The notes: generated by a model not told the origin, from the sequence alone. A stretch of DNA of 64,000 nt from Planctomycetota bacterium (GCA_030746555.1 JASLMK010000100.1:1-64000); one strand, 5' to 3'. Positions 47,668-64,000 are shown, numbered from the stretch's first letter. Numbers and translations: made by a program.

Positions 47668-49041
47668 TCAGCTCCAGAGCTTGTGCCGCTGGGGTTGCAC
47701 CAGGAGCGGCGCCCAGGCGAGGACGAGCTTCACGAGGAACAGGCCCACGGTGATGCCGAGGAAGGCGAACAGGTAGGGGAAGGGCTCGAGCCAGTCCGGC
47801 TCGCGCTGCCCGAGGTAGCGGGTGACGCCGACGGCGAGGCCGCGCACGAGCAGCCACAGGACGAGGAGGACGAGGGCGGCGTTCAGCCTGCGCGCGATGG
47901 CGCGCAGGCGCGGGCTGTCGATGTAGCGGCGCAGGATCTCTCGTTTGGGGAAGATCGTGCCGAGGATGTAGGCGAAGACCGCGAACAGGATGTAGCTGTC
48001 GATGGCGAGCTCCGAACCCATGGCGTGCGCCATCACGACGTGCGTGCCGTGGATCAGGGAGTTGAGCGGCGGCACGGAGATCAACAGGGCGAGGGTCAAG
48101 AGGCAGGCGTTCCAGTACTTGGAGTACTCGATGAACTGCACGGATGCGCGGTAGTCGAGAGAGGAGCCCGGCTTGCGCTGCATCATGAGCGTCACTTCGC
48201 GGAAGACGAGCACGAGCAGGATGATCTCCAGCATGCTCACGACGAACGCGATCCACTTGATGAGGTGATCCTGGGGGATGTGGTAGGTGTGGTGCGCGTA
48301 GTTGGTGAAGGAGTTGAGCAGACCGATGAAGAACAGCGAGAACGAGGTCTTGGAGTGCCCCGCCCGCGTGTCGCCGGTCATCCGCTCACCGACGAAGATG
48401 AGCGATCCGTAGACCATCTGGTTGAACGCGGCGACCAGGGTCCCGCAGCTCTTCCACTGGATCTGCAGGTCGGCGATGGGGTGGCGGTCGATGCCGGGGA
48501 GCAGGTATGCGTGTCCCTCGATGAAGGTGTAGATGAAGTAGAGGATCCCCGCGCCCCACATGTAGACGTAGACCGGCCGCGAGAAGAAGCCGCGGGAGAC
48601 GCGCCGGAAGAACGTGTAGGCGAAGAGGAACCACCCGGCGAGGATCAGGACGGAGATGAGCGGGTGGAACCCCAGGTACTCGCGGCCGGTGGTGATCCCC
48701 AGGGTCAGGGTGGCGAGCGCGGCCAGGCCAGCGAGACCCCAGCACGCGAGCTGGGCCTTGACGCGCAGCTTCTCCGCCGCGGTCGGTCCGCGCGACTCGA
48801 ACAGGAAGTGCAGGACGGCGGCGGTCACCCCAAGGAAGATCCACGAGGAAGCAAAGGTGGTGTGCAGCGGCCTGAGCTCGACCAGGCTGATGCCCACGGC
48901 GCCGGCGAGCGGCGCGAGGGGCGGCAGGTAGTAGAGCGCTCCCAGCGCCCCCGCGAGGATCGAGAGCAGCAGACAAACGAATGCGCAACTCATCACTGCG
49001 AGCGTGACGCGCTGGCCGTCGGCGAGGCGGTCGTCGCTCAT
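47668..49041 (-). CDS. NorB-like haem-copper-superfamily subunit with atypical ligands
   Basis: 457 residues, 12 membrane helices. NorB-like features: His60 in ELRPLHTTFASSWIF (low-spin haem), FIEGHAYL (E175) at the position of NorB HLWVEG, NYAHHTYH (H250, H251) as metal-B ligands, and HGTHVVMAHAMGSELAID (H339, high-spin haem). Two differences from canonical NorB stand out: the His four residues before E175 is Tyr, and the second low-spin-haem His is Met341. It could be an NO reductase of a divergent class or an oxidase-like relative. ATG 49041 overlaps the NorC-like stop as ATGA. Confidence 0.8.
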   Translation of the reverse strand: MSDDRLADGQRVTLAVMSCAFVCLLLSILAGALGALYYLPPLAPLAGAVGISLVELRPLHTTFASSWIFLGVTAAVLHFLFESRGPTAAEKLRVKAQLACWGLAGLAALATLTLGITTGREYLGFHPLISVLILAGWFLFAYTFFRRVSRGFFSRPVYVYMWGAGILYFIYTFIEGHAYLLPGIDRHPIADLQIQWKSCGTLVAAFNQMVYGSLIFVGERMTGDTRAGHSKTSFSLFFIGLLNSFTNYAHHTYHIPQDHLIKWIAFVVSMLEIILLVLVFREVTLMMQRKPGSSLDYRASVQFIEYSKYWNACLLTLALLISVPPLNSLIHGTHVVMAHAMGSELAIDSYILFAVFAYILGTIFPKREILRRYIDSPRLRAIARRLNAALVLLVLWLLVRGLAVGVTRYLGQREPDWLEPFPYLFAFLGITVGLFLVKLVLAWAPLLVQPQRHKLWS

Positions 49042-49796
49042 TCGAACTCGAACCAGGGGATCTCGGAGAGGAGGAGCTCGTCGCTGGTCGCACGGCTCTC
49101 GAAGCGCGCGCGGATGCCCTCGCCGTGCTCGCCGAGCCAGCCCAAGAAGGCGAGCACTGCCTCGCAGTCCTCGTCGTCCAGGCCCAAGCGCGGCATCGCC
49201 GTCGGGGGGATGCCGTCGCGCAGTACTCCGAAGAGGCGCGCGGGCTCCACCTGCTCGGCCATCGCCGTCAGGTCGGTGGCGAGGTGGAGGCTCTGGCCGT
49301 TGGGGAGATGGCATCCGATGCAGCCCTGAGCGGCGACGATCTCCCAGCCACGTGCGGCGCTCTCGCCCAGGTCGCCGGTCGACTCGACGAGGCCGCGCAG
49401 GAGATCGGCCGGCGCGACGACCTCTCCCAGCACCGCCTGGGCGACGCCTGTCTCGTCGAGCTCGCCCAGGAACGCGGCGACGGCCTCGCGTGCCGGCGCG
49501 TCGAGTCCGAAGGCCGGCATCTGCCCGGCACCGTCGGTGAGGATGGCGGTCAGCCGTTCGGGGCTGATGAGATCGATCGCGTTGGTCAGGTCCGGCCCGA
49601 GGAACCCTCCGAAGCCGTAGATCTGATGGCAGCTCTGACAGTTGTGGTCGCGCCAGACCGCCTGACCCTCGAGAGCGAGCGGCGAGAGACTCTGGAGTCT
49701 CCCAAGAGGGTCGGAGTAGACGCGCCAGGTCTGCATGCAGAAGATCGCCACGAGCAGGGCGAGGAACAGCTGCCGGGTCCGAACGTCCACGGCCAT
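49038..49796 (-). CDS. NorC-like di-haem cytochrome c
   Basis: 252 residues. An N-terminal membrane anchor (QLFLALLVAIFCMQTW) is followed by a NorC-like haem domain: ALEGQAVWRDHNCQSCHQIYGFGGFLGPDLTN, which matches the NorC pattern VW...C..CH...G.G.....PDLTN. Canonical NorC has one haem; here a second domain carries GCIGCHLPNGQ with a likely Met ligand further on (PTAMPRLG). It forms a two-gene operon with the NorB-like subunit and would feed it electrons. It diverges from the sensor-kinase gene with a 143-bp gap. Confidence 0.82.
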   Translation of the reverse strand: MAVDVRTRQLFLALLVAIFCMQTWRVYSDPLGRLQSLSPLALEGQAVWRDHNCQSCHQIYGFGGFLGPDLTNAIDLISPERLTAILTDGAGQMPAFGLDAPAREAVAAFLGELDETGVAQAVLGEVVAPADLLRGLVESTGDLGESAARGWEIVAAQGCIGCHLPNGQSLHLATDLTAMAEQVEPARLFGVLRDGIPPTAMPRLGLDDEDCEAVLAFLGWLGEHGEGIRARFESRATSDELLLSEIPWFEFE

Positions 49797-49939
49797 AGTC
49801 TCGCGTGCGGTGCCGGGGTTGCAAGGTCCTGCGGCGGCGGATCGGGGGGCGGGCGCCCAGTTCCTCCGGGGCGGCGCACATCCGGCCCAGGTCGCCGTGC
49901 TACAAGTGGACCCGGTCGGCCGGCGCCGACCGCGCGACC

Positions 49940-52192
49940 ATGAGGGATCCGCTCCGCAACGTCTCCGTCCGCTACAAGCTGGTCATCTCCTTCCTGGGGG
50001 TCTGCTTCCTGGCCTTCGGTGTCGGCGGCTTCCTGGTGTCCTCGTCGGCTCGGGAGTCCCTCGAGCGCGAGATCCTGACCCTCCTGCGCTTCCAATCGCA
50101 GTTCTACGCCACGGTCCTCGAGGCGGACCTGCGGGCGCTCGGTCTGCGCGCGCGCGACTTCGCCTCGGACGGCTACATCCGGACGCGCTTCGACGAGCTA
50201 GGCGCCGAGCCCGATCCCGTCGCCCGCGCCGGAGAGGAGGAGGCCCTGCGCGGCCACCTCCTGCGGAACAAGCTCACCCTCGAGCCTGCGTTCTCGAACC
50301 TCGCCCTGGCGAGGCCGGAGGGGAACGGGATCTTCCTGGCCGACGAACAGGACGCGCTCTGGATTCGGTCCCTGACGCCGGCCGCTTTCGGCACCGACGA
50401 CTGGTCGAGCGGGATCGTGGTCGGGGAGGGGGAGGACACGCGGCCCTCGGTCGTCCTCGCGACCCCGCTCTGGAGCCTCGCGGGGGATCGGCGCGTCGGG
50501 ACCCTCCTCGTGCGCGTCGACTGCGGCGTGTGGATCGCAAGTGCCCTCGGCTCCATCCAGGTCGGGGAGGAGATGCGGGGAGCCGATCCCAGCCTGCGCC
50601 TCCGCGACCGCTCGGGGAGGGCCCTGGAGATTCCCCAGCGGATGCTGGGCGGCGGCGTCGCGACCGGGGGGAGCGGGAGAGGACGGGGATCCGTCCTCGT
50701 CGTCACCGGAGGGGAGGCACAGCGCGAGCGCGTCCCCGTCCTCTCCCGCGACGTGCTGGCGAGCAGCTTCCCGATCACCATCAACGGCTGGGCGCTGGAG
50801 ACCTCATTGGAGACGACCGAGGCGCTGCGCGCCGTCTCGGGTTTGCAGGCGCGCTTCCTGCTGACGGGCGTTGTCCTGGCGCTGGCTGCTTGCGTGATCC
50901 TGTTCTTCCCCATGCGCTTCCTCGTGCGCCCGATCCGAGAGCTGCGGGATGCGACCGTGCACATCGGCGAGGGTGACTTCAGCGTGCGCGTCCCGGTCGA
51001 CTCCACCGACGAGATCGGCGACCTCTCCCAGTCCTTCAACCGCATGGCCCGTGCCGTCGAGGAGAGGACGGAGTCGCTGGAGGCGACCGCCGAGTCGCTC
51101 TCCCAGCGCAAGAACGACCTGCTCAAGGAGCGCGACCGCCTGAACGCGGTGATCCTCTCCATGCGCGACGGCCTGATGGTCCTGGACGCCGACGGCAGGC
51201 CGGATGTCTGGAACGCGGCGGCGGAGCCGCTGCGGACGGCCGTCGCCGACGGCGGGCTGGGCGTGGCGTCGCACCGCAACTGCCAGCGGTCCGCCCTCCC
51301 CGACGAAGAGGATCCCCAGCCCGTGACGGATGCCGGGCATCCCTGCCTGAAGTGCCTCTTCGAGCCCGCGGCTCCGCCGCGCTCCTGCCTGCTCGACGTC
51401 GGCCCCTTCGTCTACGAGATCCACTCCACGCGCCTGTCCTCCGAGCCCGACGGCCGCGCCGGTCGCGTCCTCGTCGCCCGCGACGTGGCCGACCGCGCCC
51501 AGCAGGACGAACGCGAGATCCACCAGGAGCGGCTGGCGGTCTTGGGGGAGGTAGCGGCCGTGATGGCGCACGAGTTGAACAACCCCTTGGCGGCGATCAA
51601 GATGTTCAGCCAGATGATCGTCTCCAAGCTCCCCGCCGACTCTCCGCTGCTCGAAGACGTCAAGGTGATCGAGCGCAACACCCAGACCTGCACGCGCACG
51701 ATCCGGGAGCTGCTCGACTACGCCACGGGAGCCACCCCCGAGGTGGGTCCCGTCGACATCCACGAGAGCCTGAGGGAGGTGGCGAGCTTCCTGCGCGCCT
51801 TCCGCGAGCGCAAGGAGATCGAGCTCGAGTTGGTGCTCGCCGCGGAGGACCCCGTGGTCACCGGTGACGAGGTGCAGCTGCGTCAGGTCTTCGTGAACCT
51901 GATCCTCAATGCCCTGCAGGCGGTCGGAGAGGGAACGGTCGAGGTCAGGACGCGGCAGGGCGGCGGCCACATCGTCGTCGAGGTGGAGGACGACGGCCCG
52001 GGCATCCCGCCCGAGTCCGTGGAGGAGATCTTCAGGCCCTTCTACACGACCAAGCCGCGTGGCAGCGGCACCGGATTGGGGCTCTCCACCGCGCGGCGCA
52101 TCACCGAGATCCAGGGCGGCGGGATCGAGCTGGTGGAGTCGCGGCCGGGCAAGACGGTGTTCCTCGTGCGGCTCTTGCGTGACGCGCCGTGA
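49940..52192 (+). CDS. Membrane sensor histidine kinase with cysteine-rich PAS-like domain
   Basis: 750 residues. TM1 at about 13-35, an extracytoplasmic sensor region of about 265 residues, TM2 at about 300-325, HAMP (about 326-378), a coiled linker, a PAS-like domain (about 388-505), HisKA with His544 in VMAHELNNPLAAIK, and HATPase_c (NLILNALQAVGEG, DDGPGIPPE, GSGTGLGLSTARRI). The PAS-like domain contains C448, C469, C472 and C483 (C-X20-C-X2-C-X10-C), which could bind a metal or Fe-S cluster. The stop overlaps the regulator start as GTGA, so they form a two-component pair. The stimulus is probably redox, oxygen or nitrogen oxide (inference). Confidence 0.92.
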   Translation: MRDPLRNVSVRYKLVISFLGVCFLAFGVGGFLVSSSARESLEREILTLLRFQSQFYATVLEADLRALGLRARDFASDGYIRTRFDELGAEPDPVARAGEEEALRGHLLRNKLTLEPAFSNLALARPEGNGIFLADEQDALWIRSLTPAAFGTDDWSSGIVVGEGEDTRPSVVLATPLWSLAGDRRVGTLLVRVDCGVWIASALGSIQVGEEMRGADPSLRLRDRSGRALEIPQRMLGGGVATGGSGRGRGSVLVVTGGEAQRERVPVLSRDVLASSFPITINGWALETSLETTEALRAVSGLQARFLLTGVVLALAACVILFFPMRFLVRPIRELRDATVHIGEGDFSVRVPVDSTDEIGDLSQSFNRMARAVEERTESLEATAESLSQRKNDLLKERDRLNAVILSMRDGLMVLDADGRPDVWNAAAEPLRTAVADGGLGVASHRNCQRSALPDEEDPQPVTDAGHPCLKCLFEPAAPPRSCLLDVGPFVYEIHSTRLSSEPDGRAGRVLVARDVADRAQQDEREIHQERLAVLGEVAAVMAHELNNPLAAIKMFSQMIVSKLPADSPLLEDVKVIERNTQTCTRTIRELLDYATGATPEVGPVDIHESLREVASFLRAFRERKEIELELVLAAEDPVVTGDEVQLRQVFVNLILNALQAVGEGTVEVRTRQGGGHIVVEVEDDGPGIPPESVEEIFRPFYTTKPRGSGTGLGLSTARRITEIQGGGIELVESRPGKTVFLVRLLRDAP

Positions 52193-53580
52193 ACGCTCCC
52201 TCCCGACTCGACCTCAGCGACCTGCGCGTGCTGGTCGTGGACGACGAGGACGACATCCGCCTGGGGCTCGGGCGCCTGGCGGCCTCGGTCGGCGCCCAGG
52301 TGGAGGAGGCGCCCGACGGCCGGGCCGCCCTGGGCGTGCTCGACCGCTGGCCCGCGGATCTGGTCTTGACGGACCTGATGATGCCCAAGATGTCCGGTGG
52401 GCAGCTGCTGGTGGAGATCAAGAAGCGCCAGCCCGGCACCGAGGTCGTGATCCTCACCGGCTACGGGACCGTGCAGTCGGCCGTGCAGTGCCTGCAGACC
52501 GGTGCCGCGCACTTTCTGACCAAGCCCTTCGACAACGAGGGCGTCACGCAGCTCATCCGGCGGCTGGGTCGCCAGGTTCTGGCCCGCCGCATCCCCGAGG
52601 CGGACGGCGATGCGACGCTGCTGGCTCAGGACGCGCGCATGAAGCCGGTGACCGAGCTGATCGCGCGCGTGGCGCAGAGCTCGGTCGCGGTCCTGATCGA
52701 GGGCGAGAGCGGGACGGGCAAAGAGGTGATCGCGCGGGAGATCCACCGCCGCAGCGCCGTGGCCGACCGGCCGTTCCTGGCGGTCAACACGCCCGCGTTG
52801 CCCGACACGCTCCTCGAGTCAGAGCTGTTCGGCCACGAGCGCGGGGCCTTCACCGGCGCCGACCGCGCCCGGGAGGGCATCTTCGCCGAGGCCGGCGGAG
52901 GGACGGTCTTCCTCGACGAGGTGTCGTCCATGTCCGCCCCGTTCCAGGGCAAGCTCTTGCGCGTGCTGCAGGAGCGCGTCGTACGCCGCCTGGGTGGTTC
53001 GGGCGACGTGCCGGTCGAATTCCGCCTCCTCGCCGCCACGAACCGCGATCTAGAGGTGGCGATTCGCAAGGGGGAGTTCCGTGAGGACCTCTTCTACCGG
53101 CTCGGCGTGGTGCGGATCTTCGTGCCGCCCCTGCGCGCCCGCCCCGACGACATTCCGCTCCTTGCCAACCACTTCCTGCGCCGCAGCGCGGGCACGAGCT
53201 TGGGCGAAGGGGTCGAGGCGCCGCGCATCTCCACGGAGGCCATGAGCGCACTCCTCGGCCATGACTGGCCCGGCAACGTGCGCGAGCTCGAGAACGCTCT
53301 GCAGCGGGCGGTGATCGTCTGCACCGATGGAGTCATCGAGCCCTGGCACCTCGGTCTGCGCAGCAGCGGCTGGGAGCCGGCGGAAGCGGAGGAAGAGGAC
53401 ATGGACTACTCGCGGAGCAAGCAGCGGGCCGTCGAGGAGTTCCAGCGCCAGTTCGTGCACAGGGCGCTCGAGGGCGCGCGGGGGAACATCTCGCGGGCCG
53501 CCCAGTCGTGCGGCATGACCCGGGCGGCGCTCCAGCGGATCATGCGCCAGCTCGACATCGAGCGAGAGGCGTACGAGTAG
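52189..53580 (+). CDS. NtrC-family sigma-54-dependent response regulator
   Basis: 463 residues in the classic three-domain order. The receiver (about 12-128) has phospho-acceptor D62 in LVLTDLMMPKMSG and K112. The AAA+ domain has Walker A GESGTGKE (172-179), the sigma-54-contacting GAFTGA (219-224) and Walker B TVFLDE. The C-terminal Fis-type HTH reads GNISRAAQSCGMTRAALQRIM. An intact GAFTGA means it can activate sigma-54 RNA polymerase. The likely targets are the two following transcription units, which carry sigma-54-type promoters with matching upstream palindromes. Confidence 0.95.
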   Translation: MNAPSRLDLSDLRVLVVDDEDDIRLGLGRLAASVGAQVEEAPDGRAALGVLDRWPADLVLTDLMMPKMSGGQLLVEIKKRQPGTEVVILTGYGTVQSAVQCLQTGAAHFLTKPFDNEGVTQLIRRLGRQVLARRIPEADGDATLLAQDARMKPVTELIARVAQSSVAVLIEGESGTGKEVIAREIHRRSAVADRPFLAVNTPALPDTLLESELFGHERGAFTGADRAREGIFAEAGGGTVFLDEVSSMSAPFQGKLLRVLQERVVRRLGGSGDVPVEFRLLAATNRDLEVAIRKGEFREDLFYRLGVVRIFVPPLRARPDDIPLLANHFLRRSAGTSLGEGVEAPRISTEAMSALLGHDWPGNVRELENALQRAVIVCTDGVIEPWHLGLRSSGWEPAEAEEEDMDYSRSKQRAVEEFQRQFVHRALEGARGNISRAAQSCGMTRAALQRIMRQLDIEREAYE

Positions 53581-53682: not shown

Positions 53683-53711
53683 GTATGCGGGATTGCATAG
53701 CCGCGTATGCA
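53683..53711. promoter_or_regulatory. Upstream activator site of the NarK-DoxX gene
   Basis: A perfect palindrome, TGCATA-GCCGCG-TATGCA, occupies 53694-53711. A further TATGC half-site at 53684-53688 gives TATGC/GCATA elements phased every 11 bp. The 17 bases TGCATAGCCGCGTATGC recur exactly upstream of the nar operon. The palindrome centre is 60.5 bp before the GG of the sigma-54-type promoter. It is the best candidate for binding by the adjacent NtrC-type regulator. Confidence 0.7.
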
Positions 53712-53760
53712 GGAGTGGGCCTTCCAGGTGGCGCGAGCCGCCTCCGCTTCTCCTTCAGGA

Positions 53761-53776
53761 TTGGCACACCGCTTGC
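53761..53776 (+). promoter_or_regulatory. Sigma-54-type promoter of the NarK-DoxX gene
   Basis: TTGGCACACCGCTTGC matches the -24/-12 consensus (YTGGCAC N5 TTGC) with the required GG-N10-GC spacing (GG 53763-53764, GC 53775-53776). Transcription would start near 53788, leaving a leader of about 65 bases before ATG 53853. The remainder of the 272-bp gap after the regulator gene shows no other recognisable feature. Confidence 0.78.
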
Positions 53777-53852
53777 GCGGGAGCCTGCCGGTCGCGAGGC
53801 GCATTGCCTGACGCCTCGCACGAATCCGAGAGGACGCGCACGGAGCGGAGAC

Positions 53853-55646
53853 ATGGACGTCAAGAACAAGGCGACCCGCATTGACCTGTTCAGCCTGAGG
53901 ACCCCGCAGATGAGGGCGTTCCACATGTCGTGGTTCGCCTTCTTCCTGTGTTTCTTCTCCTGGTTCGGGATCGCGCCGCTGATGGCGATCGTGCGCGACG
54001 AGCTCGGCCTCACCAAGGCGCAGATCGGGAACACGATCATCGCGTCGGTCGCCATCACGATCGTGGCCCGCCTGATGATCGGCTGGTTGTGCGACCACAT
54101 CGGACCGCGCATCAGCTACACGATGCTGCTGCTCGGGGGGTCCCTCCCGGTGATGGGGATCGGGCTCGCCGAGAGCTATGAGAGCTTCCTGCTCTTCCGC
54201 CTGGGGATCGGCGTGATCGGCGCCTCCTTCGTCATCACCCAGTACCACACGTCCGTCATGTTCGCGCCCAACTGCGTGGGGACGGCGAACGCGACCAGCG
54301 CCGGTTGGGGGAATCTGGGGGGCGGCGTTACCCAGATGGTGATGCCGCTGGTCTTCGCGGGATTCGTGGCCCTGGGGTACACCGACGCCATCAGCTGGCG
54401 GCTGTCCATGGTCGCCGCCGGGGGGGTGTGCTTCGTCACCGGCATCGCCTACTTCTTCCTCACACAGGACCTCCCCGACGGCAACTTCGGCGAGCTGCGC
54501 AGGCGCGGGGAGATCACGACCAAGGAGAAGACGCGCGGTAGCTTCCTGCTCGCTGCCAAGGATCGGCGCGTCTGGATGCTCTTCCTGGTCTACGCGGCAT
54601 GCTTCGGGATCGAGCTGACGATCAACAACATCGCCGCCCTCTACTACATCGACTTCTTCGGGCTCGGATTGAAGTCAGCCGGCCTCGTCGCCGGCCTGTT
54701 CGGTCTGATGAACATCTTCGCCCGGACTACCGGGGGGATCATCGGAGACAAGTTCGGGCGTCGCTGGGGCCTGAGGGGGCGCGTGCGCTGGCTCTTCATC
54801 GCACTCTTCGTGGAGGGGATTGCGCTCATCTGCTTCTCGCGCATGACCATCCTCCCCGTGGCGATCGGCACGATGATCGTCTTCAGCCTGTTCGTGCAGA
54901 TGTCCGAGGGCGCGACCTACTCCGTCGTTCCTTTCATCAACAAGAAGGCCCTGGGGTCGGTCGCGGGGATCGTGGGGGCCGGCGGAAACGTGGGGGCGGT
55001 CTCCGCAGGGTTCCTGTTCCGCATGGAAGGCCTCACCTGGCCGGGCGCTCTCTTGATCCTGGGTTGCGCGGTGCTGTGTCTGTCCTTCGTGGCCCTGCTC
55101 GTGCGCTTCAGCGAGGCGGACGAGAAGGAAGCGACCGCGGAGCACGCCGACGCGCTGGCCGTGCGGGCTCGCACCAAGCGAGAGCGCAGCTTCGAACTGC
55201 CGCGTCCGGCGGCGGGGCGGCGCGTGACCCCGATTGCCGTGTTGCGCATCTACCTGGGCGTCGCCCTGGCGGTCAAGGGCATCTACTTCATCCTCAACAT
55301 GGGCGATCTGGAGGCGCACATGGAGGGGACCTTCGGGCACGCACAAACGGTGGTCGCCTGGTTCGTAGTTCTGGCCCACTCGGTGGGCGGCGCGTGCCTG
55401 GCGCTGGGCCTGGCCACCCGCTTCGTCGCGGCCGTGAACGCTGTCGTGCTGAGTGGTGCCGTCCTGGTCCACCTGACCGGAGCGACGAGCCTCGAGCTCC
55501 TTGGAGCCAACCTCAACTTCCAGTTCGCCATGCTCGTGTTGGTGACGCTGGTCATCATCTTCTGGCAGGGAGCCGGCGGCTTCTCGATGGACCGCATGGT
55601 CCGCGAGGAGAGCGGTTCGGAGAGCGGCGTCGCCTCGGCCACTTGA
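53853..55646 (+). CDS. narK: NarK-type nitrate/nitrite transporter fused to a DoxX-like domain
   Basis: 597 residues. Residues 1-470 form a 12-helix major-facilitator transporter with nitrate signatures: SAGWGNLGGGVTQ in the first half and GIVGAGGNVGAVSAGF in the second, plus the RLMIGWLCDHIGPR loop. A charged linker (about 455-510) leads to a C-terminal four-helix DoxX-like domain (AVLRIYLGVALAVKGIYFIL, VVLAHSVGGACLALGLATRF, NLNFQFAMLVLVTLVIIF). It moves nitrate in or nitrite out for the cytoplasmic Nar enzyme. The DoxX domain is unusual and may couple transport to redox or quinone state (inference). Predicted sigma-54 control. Confidence 0.88.
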   Translation: MDVKNKATRIDLFSLRTPQMRAFHMSWFAFFLCFFSWFGIAPLMAIVRDELGLTKAQIGNTIIASVAITIVARLMIGWLCDHIGPRISYTMLLLGGSLPVMGIGLAESYESFLLFRLGIGVIGASFVITQYHTSVMFAPNCVGTANATSAGWGNLGGGVTQMVMPLVFAGFVALGYTDAISWRLSMVAAGGVCFVTGIAYFFLTQDLPDGNFGELRRRGEITTKEKTRGSFLLAAKDRRVWMLFLVYAACFGIELTINNIAALYYIDFFGLGLKSAGLVAGLFGLMNIFARTTGGIIGDKFGRRWGLRGRVRWLFIALFVEGIALICFSRMTILPVAIGTMIVFSLFVQMSEGATYSVVPFINKKALGSVAGIVGAGGNVGAVSAGFLFRMEGLTWPGALLILGCAVLCLSFVALLVRFSEADEKEATAEHADALAVRARTKRERSFELPRPAAGRRVTPIAVLRIYLGVALAVKGIYFILNMGDLEAHMEGTFGHAQTVVAWFVVLAHSVGGACLALGLATRFVAAVNAVVLSGAVLVHLTGATSLELLGANLNFQFAMLVLVTLVIIFWQGAGGFSMDRMVREESGSESGVASAT

Positions 55647-55657
55647 GGAGGTCGGGG

Positions 55658-55697
55658 GTGCATAGGGAGTTTGGCGGGGTGCATAGCCGCGTATGCG
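55658..55697. promoter_or_regulatory. Upstream activator site of the nar operon
   Basis: TGCATA-GCCGCG-TATGCG at 55680-55697 shares 17 consecutive bases with the site before the NarK-DoxX gene. A direct repeat of its left arm, GTGCATAG, lies 21 bp upstream (55658-55665), two helical turns away. The palindrome centre is 59.5 bp before the promoter GG, within 1 bp of the spacing at the other site. Confidence 0.7.
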
Positions 55698-55746
55698 CAG
55701 TTCGACGGGATTCGAGCCGGAGACGTGCGCAGGCGCTCTCGCTTCC

Positions 55747-55762
55747 CGGCACGGAGTTTGAA
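55747..55762 (+). promoter_or_regulatory. Sigma-54-like promoter of the nar operon
   Basis: CGGCACGGAGTTTGAA resembles TGGCACGN4TTGCA with GG at 55748-55749 and TTGA in place of TTGC in the -12 element. The GG-N10-G spacing is kept but the -12 C is A. It is a weaker match than the NarK-DoxX promoter; the identical upstream site at the same distance supports it. Predicted start near 55773, about 22 bases before ATG 55795. Confidence 0.55.
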
Positions 55763-55794: not shown

Positions 55795-56685
55795 ATGTTG
55801 AACAAGATCCACCGGCTCTCCCTCTCTCTCTCCGCTCCCGTCGCGGCGGCCCTGCTCTCGGTGACGCCGAGTGTGGCCCTCGCCCAGGACGCTCCGTCGG
55901 AGGAGACGATCGAGTACTTCCGGCAGAACTGCATGAGCTGCCACACGATCGGCGGCGGACCTCTGACCGGGCCCGATCTGAAGGGCGTTACCGAGCGGGC
56001 GGACGAGGCGTGGCTCGTCGACTTCATCCTCGACCCCAAGGCCGTGATCGACAGCGGAGACCCCTACGCGGCGGAGCTGCTGCGAGAGGCGCGCGGCGTC
56101 TACATGACCCAGGTTCCTGGGCTCGACCGCGCCAAGGCCGAGAAGCTCGTGAGATTGATCGTCGCCGAGTCGGCCAAGGAGCGCTCGCTGTTCGCCGGCC
56201 TGGAGATCAGCGATCGTCCCCTGACGGAGGCCGACGTCGAGCGCGGCCGCGCTCTGTTCATGGGCACCGCTGTCTACGAGAACGGTGCGCCGGCCTGCAT
56301 CTCCTGTCACACGGCGAGCGGCATCGGCGGACTGGGCGGGGGTCGGCTAGGGCCCGACCTGACGGACGCCTACGCACGGCTCGAGGGGCGCAAGGCCCTC
56401 TCCGCCTGGCTCGGCGCGCCGCCGTCGTTGGTGATGCAACCGGTCTTCAAGAACCACGCCCTCGACGGCGAGGAGATCCTGGCCATCGTCGCCTACCTCA
56501 AGTCCGTCGCGGAGAGCGAGGCGAACGAGGGGCCGACCAGCATCCTGCAGTTCGTGCTCCTCGGCTTCGGGGGTTCCGCCCTGCTCCTGTTGCTCTTCGA
56601 CTTCCTCTGGCGCGGGCGCTACCGCGCGACCCGGCGCCCCCTGATCAGCGACAGCAAGCACGCGCGAATGGGATCCAGCTCATGA
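55795..56685 (+). CDS. Membrane-anchored di-haem cytochrome c of the nar operon
   Basis: 296 residues. Signal peptide ([23 protein letters not shown]), then two class-I-like haem domains with CMSCH and CISCH, and likely Met ligands in YMTQVPGL and [13 protein letters not shown]-terminal membrane helix ([21 protein letters not shown]) ends in basic residues. It resembles the NarC-type cytochromes encoded with nitrate reductase in several deep-branching bacteria and archaea. Its stop overlaps the narG ATG as ATGA. Likely connects quinol or cytochrome pools to the Nar complex or to a periplasmic acceptor. Confidence 0.87.
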
Positions 56686-59600
56686 AGAACGGCTTCGCGG
56701 GGAACCCCGACAACCCCTACATCCAGGACTCCGTCGATCCCAAGGCTCGCTCTTGGGAGGAGTTCTATCGCAACCGTTGGCAGCACGACAACGTCGTGCG
56801 CAGCACCCACGGGGTCAACTGCACCGGCGGGTGTTCTTGGAACATCCACACCAAGGACGGGATCGTCACCTGGGAGATGCAGGCTCTCGACTACCCGACG
56901 ATCGACAAGCAGATCCCGCCCTACGAGCCTCGCGGCTGCCAGCGCGGGATCTCCTACTCCTGGTATCTCTACAGCCCGCTGCGGGTGAAGTACCCCTACA
57001 TCCGGGGCGCACTGCTCGATCTGTGGAAGGAAGCTCGTTCGCAGCACGAGGATCCGGTAGACGCCTGGAAGGCGCTCCAGAGCGATCCGGCCAAGCGAGC
57101 GCGCTACCAGCGCGCACGCGGCAAGGGCGGTTTACGTCGCACGTCTTGGAGTACGGTCAAGGAGATCATCTCGGCCTCGGCCGTCCACACGATCAAGGAC
57201 CACGGACCCGATCGCATCGTCGGCTTCTCGCCGATCCCGGCGATGTCGATGCTGTCCTATGCCGCAGGTGGCCGAATGCTCCAGCTGATGGGCGGGGTCA
57301 ACCTCTCGTTCTACGACTGGTATTGCGACCTTCCCAACGCCTCGCCCGAGACCTGGGGCGAGCAGACGGACGTGAACGAGTCGGCGGACTGGTTCCACGC
57401 CAAGTTCCTGGCCGTGATGGGGGCGAACCTGAACATGACCCGCACGCCCGACGTGCACTTCGCCTCGGAGGCGCGAACCAACGGGTCGAAGATGGTCGTC
57501 TTCGCACCGGACTTCAACCAGGTGGCGAAGTTCGCCGACGAGTGGATTCCGATCAACGCCGGGCAGGACGGCGCGTGGTGGATGGCGGTCAACCACGTCA
57601 TCCTCAAGGAGTTCCACCACGAGCAGCAGAACGAGGCCTTCCTCGACTACACCCGCAGCTTCACCGACGCGCCGTTCCTCGTGGAGCTCGAGGAGGCCGG
57701 CGGGGCCTACAAGGCCCGCCAGCTCCTGAGGGCCGGGAGGCTGGAGGCGTACGACGACGAGGAGAAGGGCGAGTGGAAGTTCCTGCAGTGGGACCGCGGT
57801 GACGCCCGCGCGAAGATGCCGATGGGCAGCTCCGGCCACCGTTGGCAGGAGAAGAAGGGGCAGTGGAACTTGCTCCCGACCGACGGCAAGGACGGCAGCG
57901 ATATCGACGCGGCCCTGACGCTGCTCGACGACCACGACGAGATCGTCCAGGTGGCGCTCGACGACTTCGGCGCTGCCAGGTCGGTGGAGCGCGGCGTGCC
58001 GGCCAAGCGCATCGCGCTCGCCGATGGCACGCAGGTGCTCGTCGCGACGGCCTACGACCTCCTGATGGCGCAGTACGGCGTCGGACGGGGCTTGGAGGGA
58101 GACTACCCCTCCAGCTACGACGAGGACGCGACCTACACCCCCGCCTGGGCGGAGCGCTACACCGGGATGGGGCGCGAGACGATCATCCGCTTTGCGCGGG
58201 AGTGGGCTTCGACGGCGCACCACACCGGCGGCAAGTGCACGGTCATCATCGGGGCGGGGATCAATCACTGGTACCACGCCAACCTCATGTACCGCGCGGC
58301 GATGCACGCGCTGATGTTCTGCGGCTGCGTGGGCGTGAACGGAGGCGGCCTGGCCCACTACGTGGGGCAGGAGAAGCTCGCGCCGATGGAGCCGTGGTCC
58401 AACATCGCCTTCGCGAAGGACTGGTATCCCCCGTCCCGGCTTCAGAACGCGCCGAGCTGGCACTACGTCCACTCCGATCAGTGGCGCTACGAGAAGAGCC
58501 ACCGCGACTACAACTGCGTGCCCGCGGACCATCCCGACGGCGGGCTGGCAGACGGTCACACAATCGACACGAATGTGCGGGCCGTGAAGGGCGGCTGGCT
58601 CCCGTTCTACCCTCAGTTCGACCGCAGCTCGGTGGACGTCGTCCGCGAGGCGCGCGAGGCGGGAGCGGAAGACGATGCCGGTGTCGTCGACTTCGTCGTG
58701 GACTCCCTCAAGAAGGGTGGCTTGAAGTTCGCCATCGAGGATCCGGACGCGGAGAGCGCGTGGCCGCGCCTGTGGTTCATCTGGCGGGGGAACGCCCTGA
58801 TGTCATCGGCCAAGGGGCACGAGTACTTCCTCGATCACTACCTGGGCACGCACCACAACAACGTCTCCAAGGACATGGCCGCGGACGCCGTCAACGACGT
58901 CGTCTGGAGGGGGCAGGCGCCCAGCGGGAAGATCGACCTCGTCATCGATCTGAACTTCCGCATGGACACCTCGGCGTTGTACTCAGACATCGTTCTTCCT
59001 GCGGCGACGTGGTACGAGAAGGACGATCTCAACTCGACGGACATGCACAGCTTCATTCATCCGCTGTCGCAGGCCGTTCCTCCGTGCTGGGAGTCGAAGA
59101 GTGACTGGGACATCTTCCGCACGATCTCCAAGAGCTTCTCCGAGCTGGCCGCCAAGCACCTGCCCGGTTTGACGCCGGACATCATCGCCGCGCCGATCGC
59201 CCACGACACCCCCGGCGAGGTCTCCCAACCGAAGATGCTCGACTGGAGCAAGGGAGAGTGCGAGGCGATCCCGGGTGTGACGATGCCCAACCTCAAGGTC
59301 GTCCAACGCGACTACGAGAACCTCTACAACCAATTCATCTCCTTCGGGCCCATCGCACGCAAGAACGGTCTGGGCGCCCACGGAACCAGCTACGCGATCG
59401 ACGACTTCTACGACGAGATGCTGGCCACGGGACCGGTCCAGCGCTGGGGCGAGGGGACCTACCCGTCACTCATGGAGGCTCGCGAGGCGGCGGACGCGGT
59501 CTTGCGTCTGGCCACGGTCACCAACGGCGAGTTGGCGCATCGTTCCTACGCCAACATGGAGGAGAAGGTCGGGCTGCCGCTGACCGACATCGCCCAGGCG

Positions 59601-60335
59601 GACCGCAACGTCCGCATGACCTACAAGGACCTGCAGTCCCAGCCGCGACGGCTGTTGAACTCACCAATGTGGAGCGGGCTGGTGGGGAGCGGACGCACCT
59701 ACGCGCCGTTCACCTACAACCGCGAGCGCATGGTCCCCTGGCGCACGCTGACGGGAAGGCAGCACTTCTACCTCGACCACGAGGGTTACATCCAGCTCGG
59801 GGAGCACCTTCCGACCTACAAGCCCAAGCCGACTCCGAACGAGTACGCGGACCTCGTGTTCAGCGCCGAAGCGGGACCCACGATCCAACTCAACTACCTG
59901 ACTCCGCACGGGAAGTGGCACATCCACTCGACCTACGGAGACAACCATCGGATGACGACCCTCTCGCGCGGTTGTGAGCCGATGTGGATCAACCCCACCG
60001 ACGCCGCCGCGATCGGCGTGGACGACAACGACTGGGTCGAGGCGCACAACGACCATGGGGTCGTCGTGACGCGTGCGGCGGTCAGCCGGAGGATTCCGCA
60101 GGGGATCTGCCTGATCTACCACTCTCCGGAACGCACCTACTCGGTGCCCAAGTCGCCCCTGCGCGGGAACCGGCGAGCGGGAGGGCACAACAGCCTCACA
60201 CGCACGCGCCTCAAGCCCAACCTGATGATCGGGGGCTACGGCCAGTTCACCTACCACTTCAACTACTGGGGCCCGACGGGCTGCAACCGGGACACGCACA
60301 TCCTGGTTCGCAAGCTCCCCGAGCTGAACTGGTAG
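56682..60335 (+). CDS. narG: Respiratory nitrate reductase alpha subunit
   Basis: 1217 residues, standard NarG length. The FS0 cluster ligands are His43, Cys47, Cys51 and Cys86 ([13 protein letters not shown] ... RGCQRG), the His-Cys3 pattern of NarG. The Mo ligand is Asp216 in [20 protein letters not shown]. The N-terminus is short and lacks a twin-arginine motif, so a cytoplasmic orientation is expected, consistent with the NarK transporters. It reduces nitrate to nitrite. Its stop is 21 bp before narH. Confidence 0.97.
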
Positions 60336-60356: not shown

Positions 60357-61844
60357 ATGGACGTTCGATCTCAGATCTCGCTGGTGTTCCACCTCGACAA
60401 GTGCATCGGGTGCCACACGTGCAGCGTCGCCTGCAAGAACGTGTGGACCGACCGCGAGGGCACGGACTACATGTGGTGGAACAACGTCGAGACCAAGCCG
60501 GGGACCGGGTATCCGACGAAGTGGGAGGACCAGGAAGCCTACAAGGGCGGGTGGAAGACCGACGGGAAGGACCTCGAGCTGAGGTCGACGAGCAAGCGCA
60601 AGATCGTCCCCAACATCTTCCACAACCCCTCGCAGCCGAGCCTGGACGACTACTACGAGCCGTGGACGTACGACTACAGCGAGCTGTTCAATGCCCCCGA
60701 GGGGGACGACCAGCCCGTGGCGCGCCCGATCTCGATGATCACCGGCGAGCCGCTGGAGATCGAGGCGGGGCCGAACTGGGACGACGACTTGGGCGGGTCG
60801 GAGGTCTACGCGGCCAACGACACGAACCTGGACGTGCTGTCGGAGGAACAGCAGCAGCAGATGAAGGCCATCGAGCGGATGGTCATGTTCTACCTGCCGC
60901 GCATCTGCAATCACTGCCTCAACCCCGCTTGTGTGGCTTCGTGCCCGTCGGGTGCGATGTACAAGCGTGGGGAGGACGGGATCGTCCTCATCAACCAGGA
61001 TCGCTGCCGGGCCTGGCGGTCGTGCATCTCCGCCTGTCCCTACAAGAAGACGTACTACAACTGGTCCACAGGCAAGTCGGAGAAGTGCATCCTCTGCTTC
61101 CCGCGCCTGGAGGCGGGAGAAGCTCCCGCGTGCTTCCACAGCTGCGTCGGCCGCATCCGCTACCTGGGCAATGTCCTCTACGACGCGGACCTGATCAAGG
61201 AGGCCGCCCTGTGTCCCGACGACGAGCTCGTCGAAGCCCAGCGGCGCACCATCCTCGACCCCAACGATCCGACGGTCGTCGAGGCGGCTACGCGCTGTGG
61301 GATCCCCGAGGCGGTCATCGACTCGGCCCGCAAGTCGCCGGCGTATCGGTTTGCCAAGGAGTGGAAGCTCGGCCTGCCGCTGCACGTGGAGTACCGCACC
61401 TTCCCCATGCTGTTCTACGTTCCGCCGCTCCTGCCAGTGATGTCGATCTCCGAAGGAGACCTCGTGCGCAGCGACGTGGACGAGTTGTTCGCGGAGATCG
61501 AGAAGGCGCGGGCGCCCATCGGCTACCTGGGGAAGCTCTTCGCTGGGGGCAACGAGGGCAAGGTTCGCTACGCGCTGCGCAAGCAGCTCGCCGTCCGCGT
61601 CTGGCGGCGCCACGTCACCGTCGGGGACGTCGGCCTCGAAGCCGCGACCCAAGCCCTGATCGAGGCGGATTGCTCGCCCGAGGAAGCCGATGAGATCTAC
61701 AAGCTGACGGCCCTCTCCACCTGGGAGGATCGGTTCGTCATTCCGCCGTTCCAACGCGAAATGGCCATGGAGATGATCACCGATCCGCACGAGCACCGCT
61801 CGGCCGCGGGGTTCGGCTTCCGGGACGCACCGCGCAGGAGTTGA
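60357..61844 (+). CDS. narH: Respiratory nitrate reductase beta (Fe-S) subunit
   Basis: 495 residues with four Cys clusters: CIGCHTCSVAC near residue 16, ICNHCLNPACVASCP, CRAWRSCISACP and CILCFPRLEAGEAPACFHSC. In the third cluster Trp replaces one Cys (CRAW), which is characteristic of NarH and gives a [3Fe-4S] centre. It passes electrons from NarI to NarG. GAGAGGA precedes the ATG. The C-terminal part (YIGYLGKLFAGG-like region and EDRFVIPPF) is NarH-typical. Confidence 0.97.
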   Translation: MDVRSQISLVFHLDKCIGCHTCSVACKNVWTDREGTDYMWWNNVETKPGTGYPTKWEDQEAYKGGWKTDGKDLELRSTSKRKIVPNIFHNPSQPSLDDYYEPWTYDYSELFNAPEGDDQPVARPISMITGEPLEIEAGPNWDDDLGGSEVYAANDTNLDVLSEEQQQQMKAIERMVMFYLPRICNHCLNPACVASCPSGAMYKRGEDGIVLINQDRCRAWRSCISACPYKKTYYNWSTGKSEKCILCFPRLEAGEAPACFHSCVGRIRYLGNVLYDADLIKEAALCPDDELVEAQRRTILDPNDPTVVEAATRCGIPEAVIDSARKSPAYRFAKEWKLGLPLHVEYRTFPMLFYVPPLLPVMSISEGDLVRSDVDELFAEIEKARAPIGYLGKLFAGGNEGKVRYALRKQLAVRVWRRHVTVGDVGLEAATQALIEADCSPEEADEIYKLTALSTWEDRFVIPPFQREMAMEMITDPHEHRSAAGFGFRDAPRRS

Positions 61845-61845
61845 G

Positions 61846-62394
61846 ATGAGGCCGGCTCCCGAAGTCCACGACGCCCTCGCGTGCCTGCTCACCTATCCGG
61901 GGGAGGGCGGAGGGTCCGAACGCTACGCGGCGGCCGCCGATGTGGTCAGCCGGTCCCTTCCCGACTGTGCGGAGGAGTTGCGGGCCTTCCTCGCCGGCAT
62001 CGGCGAGCTCGGTGATGGCGAGCTGGAGGAGCTCTACACCCACACCTTCGACAACGTCGCGGACCGATCACTCGAGGTCGGCTGGCAGCTCTTCGGCGAG
62101 AACTACGCGCGCGGAGTGCTGATGGTTCGCCTGAGGGGTCTGATGCGCGAGCATGGCATCACAGAGCACACCGAGCTTCCCGACCACCTCACCCATGTCC
62201 TGGCCCTTCTCGGGCACCTGCCCGAGGATTTGGCGGGAGCCCTGGCCCGTAACCAGGTCCACCAGGCAGCGGAGAAGATCCACGAGAACCTGCGAGCGAT
62301 CACGAGCCCCTGGGCCGGCGTCCTCGCGGTCACCCTCCGAGTGCTCGAGTCGCACTCTTCTCCGACCTGCGCCGAACAGGAGGCTACGCGATGA
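61846..62394 (+). CDS. narJ: Nitrate reductase assembly chaperone
   Basis: 182 residues. TorD/NarJ-like all-helical protein: LACLLTYPGEG near the N-terminus, then EELYTHTFDNVADRSLEVGWQLFGENYARG and LPDHLTHVLALLGHL. The LxxLxxYTxTFD-type segment and the DH-T motif are NarJ hallmarks. It binds apo-NarG and allows molybdenum cofactor insertion. The ATG starts one base after the narH stop, and its own stop overlaps narI as ATGA. Confidence 0.92.
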   Translation: MRPAPEVHDALACLLTYPGEGGGSERYAAAADVVSRSLPDCAEELRAFLAGIGELGDGELEELYTHTFDNVADRSLEVGWQLFGENYARGVLMVRLRGLMREHGITEHTELPDHLTHVLALLGHLPEDLAGALARNQVHQAAEKIHENLRAITSPWAGVLAVTLRVLESHSSPTCAEQEATR

Positions 62395-63080
62395 ACGAGT
62401 TCGTTCTCTTTGGAGTGCTGCCCTACGTGGTGATGGTCGTGTTCTTCATCGTGACGATCCAACGCTATCGCCTGAAGGCCTTCAGCTACTCGAGCCTGTC
62501 GTCGCAGTTCCTGGAGAACCAGCACCACTTCTGGGGGTCGGTGCCCTTCCATTACGGAATCCTCGTCGTCCTGTTCGGGCACGTCCTCGGGTTCCTCGCG
62601 CCCAAGACGATCCTCTCATGGAATGCCGAGCCGGCGCGGTTGATGCTGCTCGAGGTCACCGGCATCGCCTTCGCAGTACTCACGCTCGTCGGCCTGGCGA
62701 ACATCATGATCCGCCGCTGCACGAGCGCCCTCACGCGCCGGGTGACCACCCGCGGTGACTGGATCGTCTACGCCCTGCTGCTCGTCCAGGTGCTCACGGG
62801 GATCGGTGTGGCCGTGTTCCACGGTTGGGGGAGCTCGTGGTTCGCCACCAACCTGACCCCGTGGCTCTGGTCGCTCGTGAAGCTCTCGCCCGACGTGTCC
62901 TTCGTCGCCCCGCTGCCGTTCATGGTCAAGGCGCACATCGTCAATGCGTTCCTCCTGATCGGTTTCTTCCCGTTCACACGCCTCGTGCACATCCTCGTCG
63001 TTCCCAATCCCTACCTCTGGCGCCGCACGCAGGTCGTGATCTGGAACTGGGATCGCACGAAGATCCACAACCACGACTGA
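62391..63080 (+). CDS. narI: Respiratory nitrate reductase gamma subunit (cytochrome b)
   Basis: 229 residues, five membrane helices. Histidines positioned for two b haems: HYGILVVLFGHVLGF in helix 2 and MVKAHIVNAF...RLVHILVVP near the end. It anchors the complex and oxidises quinol. The C-terminal NPYLWRRTQVVIWNWDR tail lies on the cytoplasmic side and would contact NarGH. Length and topology match NarI. The NarK-like gene follows after 16 bp. Confidence 0.95.
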   Translation: MNEFVLFGVLPYVVMVVFFIVTIQRYRLKAFSYSSLSSQFLENQHHFWGSVPFHYGILVVLFGHVLGFLAPKTILSWNAEPARLMLLEVTGIAFAVLTLVGLANIMIRRCTSALTRRVTTRGDWIVYALLLVQVLTGIGVAVFHGWGSSWFATNLTPWLWSLVKLSPDVSFVAPLPFMVKAHIVNAFLLIGFFPFTRLVHILVVPNPYLWRRTQVVIWNWDRTKIHNHD

Positions 63081-63096: not shown

Positions 63097-64000
63097 GTGA
63101 AGACACCCGAACGCTGGGACGTCGAGGACGAGCAGTTCTGGGACTCCGAAGGCAAGGCGATCGCCAATCGCAACCTCTGGGTCTCCATTCCCAATCTCCT
63201 GTGCGGCTTCTCCGTGTGGCTCTACTGGGGGATGCTGGCGAAGTTCATCCAGAAGTTGCACTTCACGAGCAAGGAGCTATTCGACTTCACCTTCATGAAC
63301 GACGGCGCGTCCTACTCGGGAGACGAGTACCGGGCGCTGCTCTTCACGCTGCCTGCGGTGGCCGGCTTGTCGGGGGCCACGCTGCGCATACCGAATGCGT
63401 TCATGATCGCCATTTGCGGCGGACGCAACGTCAAGTTCATGACGACCCTGATGTTGCTCCTTCCCGCCATCGGAGCCGGGTTCGCCCTGCAGAACCCCGA
63501 CACTCCGTTCCACGTCTTCATCATGCTCGCGGCGCTCTCGGGCGTGGGCGGGGGCGCGTTCGCGTCATCGATGTCCAACATCAGCTTCTTCTTCCCCAAG
63601 CGGATGCAGGGCCTGTCTCTGGGGCTCAACGCGGGGTTGGGCAACGCCGGCGTGAGCGTGATGCAGTTCCTCCTGCCGTGGATCATCACCTTCGGCGCGT
63701 TCGGAGCCATCGGGGGCGAGCCCTTCGTGGGGGCCGGAGGGGCGGAGGTCTGGGTGCAGAACGCGGCGCTGGTCTGGGTTCCGATCCTGGGCGTGCTAGC
63801 GATCATGGCCTACCTATTCATGAACAACCTGCCGCAGCACGAGTGCGGCACGCTTCCCGTTGCGATCGGGAAGTACCTGTGGCTGACCCTCCTTGGGTTC
63901 GCGAGCGTCTCGGTGGGTGTCGTCCTGCTGATCGTCCCCTGGGGCGGCGTTCCGGTCCTGCTGAAGACCTTCCTCGTGCTGCTCGTGACCATCCTCGTGA
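63097..64000 (+). CDS. NarK2-type nitrate/nitrite transporter, truncated by window end
   Basis: At least 301 residues, still open at the window's right edge. GTG 63097 follows a GGAAGG-like ribosome site. The N-terminus KTPERWDVEDEQFWDSEGKAIANRNLWVS is typical of NarK2-like proteins of nar operons, which have a WDPEDxxFW-type start. Nitrate signature LGLNAGLGNAGVSVMQ lies in the middle, flanked by RMQGLSL. It is a major-facilitator protein distinct from the NarK-DoxX fusion upstream. It completes a cytochrome c-narGHJI-narK arrangement. Confidence 0.9.
   Translation, partial: MKTPERWDVEDEQFWDSEGKAIANRNLWVSIPNLLCGFSVWLYWGMLAKFIQKLHFTSKELFDFTFMNDGASYSGDEYRALLFTLPAVAGLSGATLRIPNAFMIAICGGRNVKFMTTLMLLLPAIGAGFALQNPDTPFHVFIMLAALSGVGGGAFASSMSNISFFFPKRMQGLSLGLNAGLGNAGVSVMQFLLPWIITFGAFGAIGGEPFVGAGGAEVWVQNAALVWVPILGVLAIMAYLFMNNLPQHECGTLPVAIGKYLWLTLLGFASVSVGVVLLIVPWGGVPVLLKTFLVLLVTILV

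Follow-up and report, generated by a model that had tools for sequence, protein, structure and literature searches.

A local two-component circuit predicted to drive nitrate respiration through RpoN in Planctomycetota

Introduction

In the open-access literature searched, nitrate respiration is placed under FNR, NarXL/NarQP, NreABC, DNR or CRP-like regulators; the roles tied to sigma-54 are nitrogen assimilation and NO detoxification. The locus described here raises the question of whether nitrate import and cytoplasmic nitrate reduction are instead governed by one NtrC-type activator acting through sigma-54 (RpoN). It lies in a 64,000-nucleotide stretch of DNA from a Planctomycetota bacterium (JASLMK010000100.1:1-64000, here called the window). 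An initial annotation had proposed such a local circuit. Comparative evidence supports it: in many genera and families, the orthologous promoters carry the palindrome and a sigma-54 element, and this activator is present as well. Judged from sequence, a kinase-activator pair encoded at the locus very probably switches on nitrate respiration through RpoN.

Genes of the nitrate locus

The genes of the locus and one protein domain are as follows.

49940-52192, plus strand: membrane sensor histidine kinase (TM, Cache-like periplasmic domain, TM, HAMP, Cys-PAS, HisKA, HATPase)
51149-51484, plus strand: PAS-like domain within the kinase (residues about 404-515), in which C448, C469, C472 and C483 are invariant
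52189-53580, plus strand: NtrC-family response regulator and sigma-54 activator (receiver, AAA+ with GAFTGA, Fis-type HTH)
53853-55646, plus strand: narK1, nitrate/nitrite MFS transporter (TIGR00886) with a C-terminal DoxX domain (Pfam DoxX)
55795-56685, plus strand: diheme c-type cytochrome, first gene of the nar operon (Pfam Cytochrom_C, two CxxCH)
56682-60335, plus strand: narG, respiratory nitrate reductase alpha subunit (TIGR01580, 1476 bits, cut-off 1084)
60357-61844, plus strand: narH (TIGR01660, 643 bits, cut-off 524)
61846-62394, plus strand: narJ, between narH and narI, with counterparts in the same place in relatives
62391-63080, plus strand: narI (TIGR00351, 129 bits, cut-off 105.6)
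63097-64000, plus strand, continuing past the window to about contig base 64720: narK2, second nitrate/nitrite transporter (TIGR00886)

The NarG, NarH and NarI products all score above the cut-offs of their equivalog models, as expected of a NarGHJI reductase, and no twin-arginine signal was seen at the NarG N terminus. The translation of the cytochrome has two CxxCH motifs and a C-terminal hydrophobic stretch that reads as a membrane anchor. NarK1 matches TIGR00886 slightly below the cut-off (E = 1.9e-89, 300.3 bits, cut-off 311.7), and NarK2 (L062 1098-2720) is below the cut-offs of both TIGR00886 (E = 1.7e-39) and the NarU-type model (E = 5.8e-56). Full-length counterparts of the narK1-DoxX fusion occur at loci L038-L041 and L046 and at the rearranged locus L061.

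Two neighbouring gene groups are recorded here as surroundings. A divergent norB-like heme-copper oxidase subunit and a cytochrome c adjoin the kinase on the minus strand (47668-49796); a five-ortholog profile of the norB-like protein matches only CcoN in the PDB (E = 0.041). These genes were rejected as members of the regulon, because the DNA that separates them from the kinase (49797-49939) has neither a palindrome nor a clear sigma-54 element. Downstream of narK2 lies a Qrc/alternative-complex-III-like cluster (L062 3138-9981, contig bases about 65137-71980) with a QrcB/QrcC-like fused protein, an ActD-like protein, a cytochrome c and a membrane subunit, the ActD-like and membrane-subunit labels being our own reading of the sequences.

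Predicted operators and promoters

The regulatory elements found before narK1 and before the cytochrome gene are listed below.

53684-53688, plus strand: extra half-site TATGC before narK1, read directly
53694-53711, no strand assigned: predicted activator site 1, TGCATAGCCGCGTATGCA, TGCATA-N6-TATGCA with perfect arms, 18 bp
53761-53776, plus strand: sigma-54 -24/-12 element of narK1, TTGGCACACCGCTTGC, near-perfect at 13.5/14
55659-55664, plus strand: half-site TGCATA upstream of site 2, at 21 bp from its left arm, read directly
55680-55697, no strand assigned: predicted activator site 2, TGCATAGCCGCGTATGCG, which ends in TATGCG
55747-55762, plus strand: sigma-54 -24/-12 element of the cytochrome-nar operon, CGGCACGGAGTTTGAA, 12/14

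According to the initial annotation, a 17-mer is duplicated, each copy lies at a set distance from a sigma-54-type promoter, and extra half-sites stand nearby. Within the window, TGCATAGCCGCGTATGC indeed occurs at 53694-53710 and 55680-55696 only. Measured between the palindrome centre and the -24 GG, the distance is 60.5 bp for narK1 and 59.5 bp for the cytochrome-nar operon, as had been given, and both half-sites are in place. By a weighted score against GG-N10-GC in a TGGCAC-N5-TTGC context, the first promoter is near-perfect and the second is good, with GA instead of GC at -12. The description as a duplicated 17-mer needs amending: both copies are present, but what is conserved is the arms and their spacing, not the whole 17-mer. 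The two window sites share the spacer GCCGCG, which looks incidental because the corresponding spacers in a genome of the same genus are GTGCCC and GCGGCG.

With up to one mismatch, TGCATA-N6-TATGC gives four strand-matches in the window, all at the two promoters, against 0.03 expected. Across the whole genome of 4,008,930 bases, the exact palindrome pattern occurs only at the two window sites, and one further match with one mismatch (C36:54140) has no adjoining nar gene. The palindrome is thus not spread randomly through the genome, a point on which the proposal depended.

Activator and sensor kinase

The kinase and the NtrC-family regulator with intact GAFTGA that had been described just upstream were both found, and the motif is present in the translation. 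According to translation and Pfam, the receiver domain (Response_reg, 94 bits, with the phospho-acceptor D62 invariant), Walker A motif, GAFTGA and Fis-type HTH of the activator are all intact; Sigma54_activat scores 214 bits, and the C-terminal HTH_8 scores 24.2 bits (cut-off 22). F221, T222, G223 and A224 are invariant in 25 orthologs. The protein therefore has the GAFTGA AAA+ domain, the receiver with partner kinase and the Fis-type HTH that define NtrC-family enhancer-binding proteins. It scores below the cut-offs of the NtrC equivalog (TIGR01818, 378 bits, cut-off 558.6) and of the NorR equivalog (307.8 bits, cut-off 476), its N-terminal domain being a receiver, and also below the curated cut-offs of AtoC, NtrX and ZraR. 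The ortholog group comprises 25 loci in 154 class genomes, the window's own included, at 519-1006 bits, with the next best match at 342 bits. In a tree with 24 other activators, 40 orthologs of the activator group as a single clade (support 0.88); among the matches listed, activators of other groups are 37-46% identical to the window activator. As an RpoN-dependent circuit demands, rpoN is present in the genome, in two copies (202 and 160 bits, at G000:C102:1580 and G000:C106:2310).

The partner kinase gene adjoins the activator gene in the class loci. In the kinase, Pfam places HAMP, HisKA and HATPase_c above cut-off, and the match to dCache_1 is weak. An AlphaFold model orders the protein as TM helix, Cache-like periplasmic domain, TM helix, HAMP, PAS and kinase core; with a mean pLDDT of 77 and a pTM of 0.44, it is good for domain types only. 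A fold search with this model returned only generic histidine kinases as best matches. The model gives the four-cysteine region PAS-like strands and helices, and the cysteines, spaced C-x20-C-x2-C-x10-C, are invariant in 23 of 23 class kinases and in 32 of 32 across the phylum, as in a NreB-type Fe-S PAS kinase. This domain suggests redox/oxygen or Fe-S sensing, given its likeness to the NreB PAS domain, which contains an oxygen-labile [4Fe-4S] cluster. At a threshold of E <= 1e-100, orthologs of the kinase were found in 27 of the 392 phylum genomes sampled (the window's own included), and they reach eight families outside the class (f15, f35, f47, f54, f63, f71, f75 and f82). A search of 24 genomes of other groups, run without a positive control, returned no ortholog of the kinase.

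Conservation within the class

For the comparison within the class, up to 20 kb were taken around each of the 25 activator loci. The gene order kinase-activator-(narK1)-cytochrome-narGHJI-narK2 is kept in most of them. Between the activator and its target gene, relatives carry the palindrome with constant arms and a changing spacer, for example TGCATAGTGCCCTATGCA, TGCATATCGTCGTATGCA, TGCATACGGCGGTATGCA and TGCATACCAAAGTATGCA. The palindrome is regarded as the predicted binding site because its arms recur before nar genes while the six central bases vary. Over 19 family-level promoter regions, mismatches to TGCATA-N6-TATGCA add up to 13, where Markov shuffles give 94.5 +/- 3.3. Among order-level relatives, the arms drift to a TGC[A/T]TCC type, with 23-24 mismatches against 52-54 +/- 2.4 in shuffled sequence. 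Most family members repeat the upstream half-site, at 21-22 bp, in their cytochrome-nar promoters (L038-L041, L043, L046 and L052). The family of the window thus has one palindrome with a half-site 21-22 bp upstream, in contrast to order-level relatives, in which two degenerate 18-bp palindromes often stand 66-68 bp apart before the cytochrome-nar operon, for example at L045, L047, L051 and L054-L058.

These comparisons bear on the reading that the repeat arose by chance or is a functionless leftover of a local promoter duplication. The two window copies share even their six-base spacer, as a recent duplication would leave them. In relatives, however, the arms are conserved and the spacers vary, several genomes have two separate sites, and the palindrome is specific both genome-wide and class-wide. 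The comparative footprint already refutes this reading, whose probability is negligible.

Exact copies of the 18-bp palindrome number 11 in the 154 class genomes, and every copy lies at a nar promoter. The exact palindrome is present in 9 of the 25 genomes with the activator and in none of the 129 others (p = 2e-8), and narG is present in all 25 and in about 9 of the 129 (p = 1e-21), genomes being treated as independent in both tests although they are related. When a composite pattern was searched with the palindrome relaxed, six genomes yielded seven matches away from nar loci, which were judged from their sequence to be chance.

Another possibility is that the sites and the sigma-54 promoters are real but a different regulator binds the palindrome, the adjacent activator working elsewhere. 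Adjacency is not binding, and class genomes hold tens of candidate NtrC-type activators each. Within the class, however, the exact palindrome is confined to genomes with the adjacent type of activator. Activator, site and nar genes also stay together through a rearrangement: at L061, narK1 has moved and diverges from the kinase, yet it keeps its own palindrome and, 50.5 bp downstream, a sigma-54 element, TGGCATCACAGTTGC. In addition, NtrC-family dimers typically have an 18-bp inverted repeat upstream of a sigma-54 promoter as their site. A different binding protein is accordingly very unlikely, and control by the adjacent activator remains the preferred reading.

The activator is not obligatory for nar, since about eight class genomes have narG without it. 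The about nine narG genomes counted above as lacking the activator include G107, with a partial narG, and G101, in which the activator may merely be unassembled because a kinase fragment lies at a contig end. Full narG without an activator ortholog occurs in G040, G042, G083, G084, G087, G125 and G058, and nar control must differ in these genomes. A genome of the same genus as the window has a second full narG (G014:C43:3828-7412) away from its kinase-activator locus.

Conservation across the phylum

Outside the class, most kinase loci run kinase-activator-cytochrome-narGHJI, with sigma-54-like elements mostly 100-160 bp before the cytochrome. Palindromes occur there as well, such as TGCATACGACGGTATGCA (L214), CGCATACCGCCGTATGCA (L198) and CGCATAGCCGGGTATGCA (L211). 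Elsewhere in the phylum, 13 regions upstream of cytochrome-nar contain 29 mismatches in total, against 61.9 +/- 2.5. Over 42 regions, the best sigma-54 score averages 12.4/14, the shuffled value being 10.1 +/- 0.12.

Beyond the family, the site becomes looser, with TGCWTCC-type arms and some regions at 4-5 mismatches. The distance between site and promoter ranges there from 42 to more than 180 bp; consequently, the fixed 60 bp appears as a trait of one sublineage. Palindrome-promoter spacings shorter than 130 bp group around a period of 11 bp (R = 0.71, p = 5e-5; p = 0.01 at 10.5), a periodicity that is suggestive, the statistic being soft because related loci are pooled and five periods were tried. 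A period of about 11 bp would be expected if activator and polymerase had to share a DNA face at short distance.

The exact palindrome was ruled out as a phylum-wide marker, kinase-less genomes being at background level. Outside the class it is found at nar only in G363 (L223), and ten other out-of-class occurrences are at background level, mostly in AT-richer genomes.

Classical control

The initial annotation had noted that the wiring would be unlike that by Fnr and NarL, and both window promoters indeed lack FNR and NarL consensus sites. The corresponding alternative is that nar is mainly under an FNR/CRP- or NarL-type regulator at a sigma-70-type promoter, sigma-54 being minor or condition-specific. 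Such control is the textbook arrangement (PMC8139620), and the genome encodes two distant HTH_Crp_2 proteins, one of them 1.6 bits over the cut-off. However, the best match to an FNR box has 4 mismatches in either window promoter, FNR-box mismatches over the 42 regions average 3.67 against a null of 3.88 +/- 0.12, and neither promoter contains a NarL 7-2-7 site. The sigma-54 elements are conserved instead. Mainly classical control is therefore unlikely, and the RpoN circuit is preferred.

Proposed mechanism and implications

In the proposed circuit, the kinase would sense a periplasmic signal and, by way of the PAS domain with its four cysteines, probably also the redox state of the cytoplasm, and would phosphorylate the NtrC-type activator. 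The activator would then bind TGCATA-N6-TATGCA about 60 bp upstream of the two sigma-54 promoters, with neighbouring half-sites helping, and would contact sigma-54 RNA polymerase by short-range DNA looping, using its GAFTGA ATPase. In this way, narK1 and the cytochrome c-narGHJI-narK2 operon would be switched on together. The parts of this putative circuit, their arrangement and their conservation can be read from the DNA itself. We infer that the activator is the protein that binds the palindrome, that it activates rather than represses, and that the signals are nitrate and oxygen or redox state.

A more tentative possibility concerns the origin of the arrangement. A single two-component system may be the ancestral control of nitrate respiration in the phylum, with both textbook inputs united in its kinase, a Cache domain for a periplasmic nitrate-type signal and a four-cysteine Fe-S PAS domain for oxygen or redox state. 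Its output would pass via RpoN at a single operator, specific to the lineage and co-evolving with the DNA-reading helix of the activator.

The arrangement seems to replace the FNR/NarL control of textbook bacteria. With a conserved RpoN circuit at narGHJI in a large and mostly uncultured group, expression of the first denitrification step would need the ATPase of an activator, and such nar expression could be fully silent in the absence of the activator's signal. The circuit also supplies a concrete operator, a promoter spacing and a sensor candidate, as well as a motif for finding the nitrate-respiration regulon in metagenomes.

Comparison with known systems

NtrC-type sigma-54 circuits are already known as a kind, and none is reported for narGHJI in the open-access literature searched. 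A word search of a review on the control of nitrate respiration finds no mention of NtrC, RpoN or enhancer (PMC8139620). The available part of a 2025 sigma-54 survey lists nitrate-reductase-annotated COG3383 members in Proteobacteria and Bacilli and no narGHJI regulon. The legend of Figure 6 in PMC10732223 marks an NtrC-family kinase ('flgS') and sigma-54 regions near Planctomycetota nar clusters; in the accessible portion of that paper these serve as labels only, with no analysis of operator, promoter or regulon. The same source describes Planctomycetota nar genes with a Qrc/ACIII-like cluster, a neighbourhood similar to that downstream of the window.

Operons in which the cytochrome gene comes first and nar transporters are present occur in Thermus (narCGHJIKT) and Geobacter metallireducens, and the Geobacter paper calls the latter's cytochrome a diheme c-type; the portions of these sources available describe a local regulator pair, DnrS/DnrT, immediately upstream of nar in Thermus and name no nar regulator for Geobacter metallireducens (PMC6282519, PMC2700814). 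Thermus differs from the window in that DnrT is CRP-like and DnrS is a GAF protein, so that the two are not a sigma-54 two-component pair.

The NtrB/NtrC and AtoS/AtoC circuits likewise consist of a kinase and a receiver-AAA+-Fis activator with GAFTGA, with inverted repeats before -24/-12 promoters. They differ in that the window activator falls below the cut-offs of NtrC, AtoC, NtrX and ZraR and that its predicted target is respiratory nitrate reduction. The NtrC consensus is TGCACY-N5-RGTGCA (17 bp), unlike the 18-bp window site TGCATA-N6-TATGCA; the best match to the NtrC consensus has 4 mismatches in both window promoters. With NarXL and FNR of enterobacteria, the window shares a membrane kinase and the predicted joint control of narK and narGHJI. 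Enterobacterial narGHJI, however, has sigma-70 promoters with FNR and NarL sites, neither of which was found in the window promoters.

According to the available text of a reconstruction of nitrogen-oxide regulons, NorR is the sigma-54 member; it activates a step of respiration or detoxification, and tandem sites precede the sigma-54 promoter (PMC1274295). The likeness to the predicted window circuit lies in a sigma-54 activator for a nitrogen-oxide step. NorR is a one-component protein with GT-N7-AC sites and nor, hmp and hcp targets, whereas the window has a two-component system at nar.

NreC of staphylococci is not known to be a sigma-54 activator. The NreABC two-component system controls the nar genes and narT, and NreB carries an oxygen-sensitive [4Fe-4S] cluster in its PAS domain (PMC8139620). 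The window kinase differs from NreB in being membrane-bound, in having a Cache-like domain and in spacing its cysteines as C-x20-C-x2-C-x10-C.
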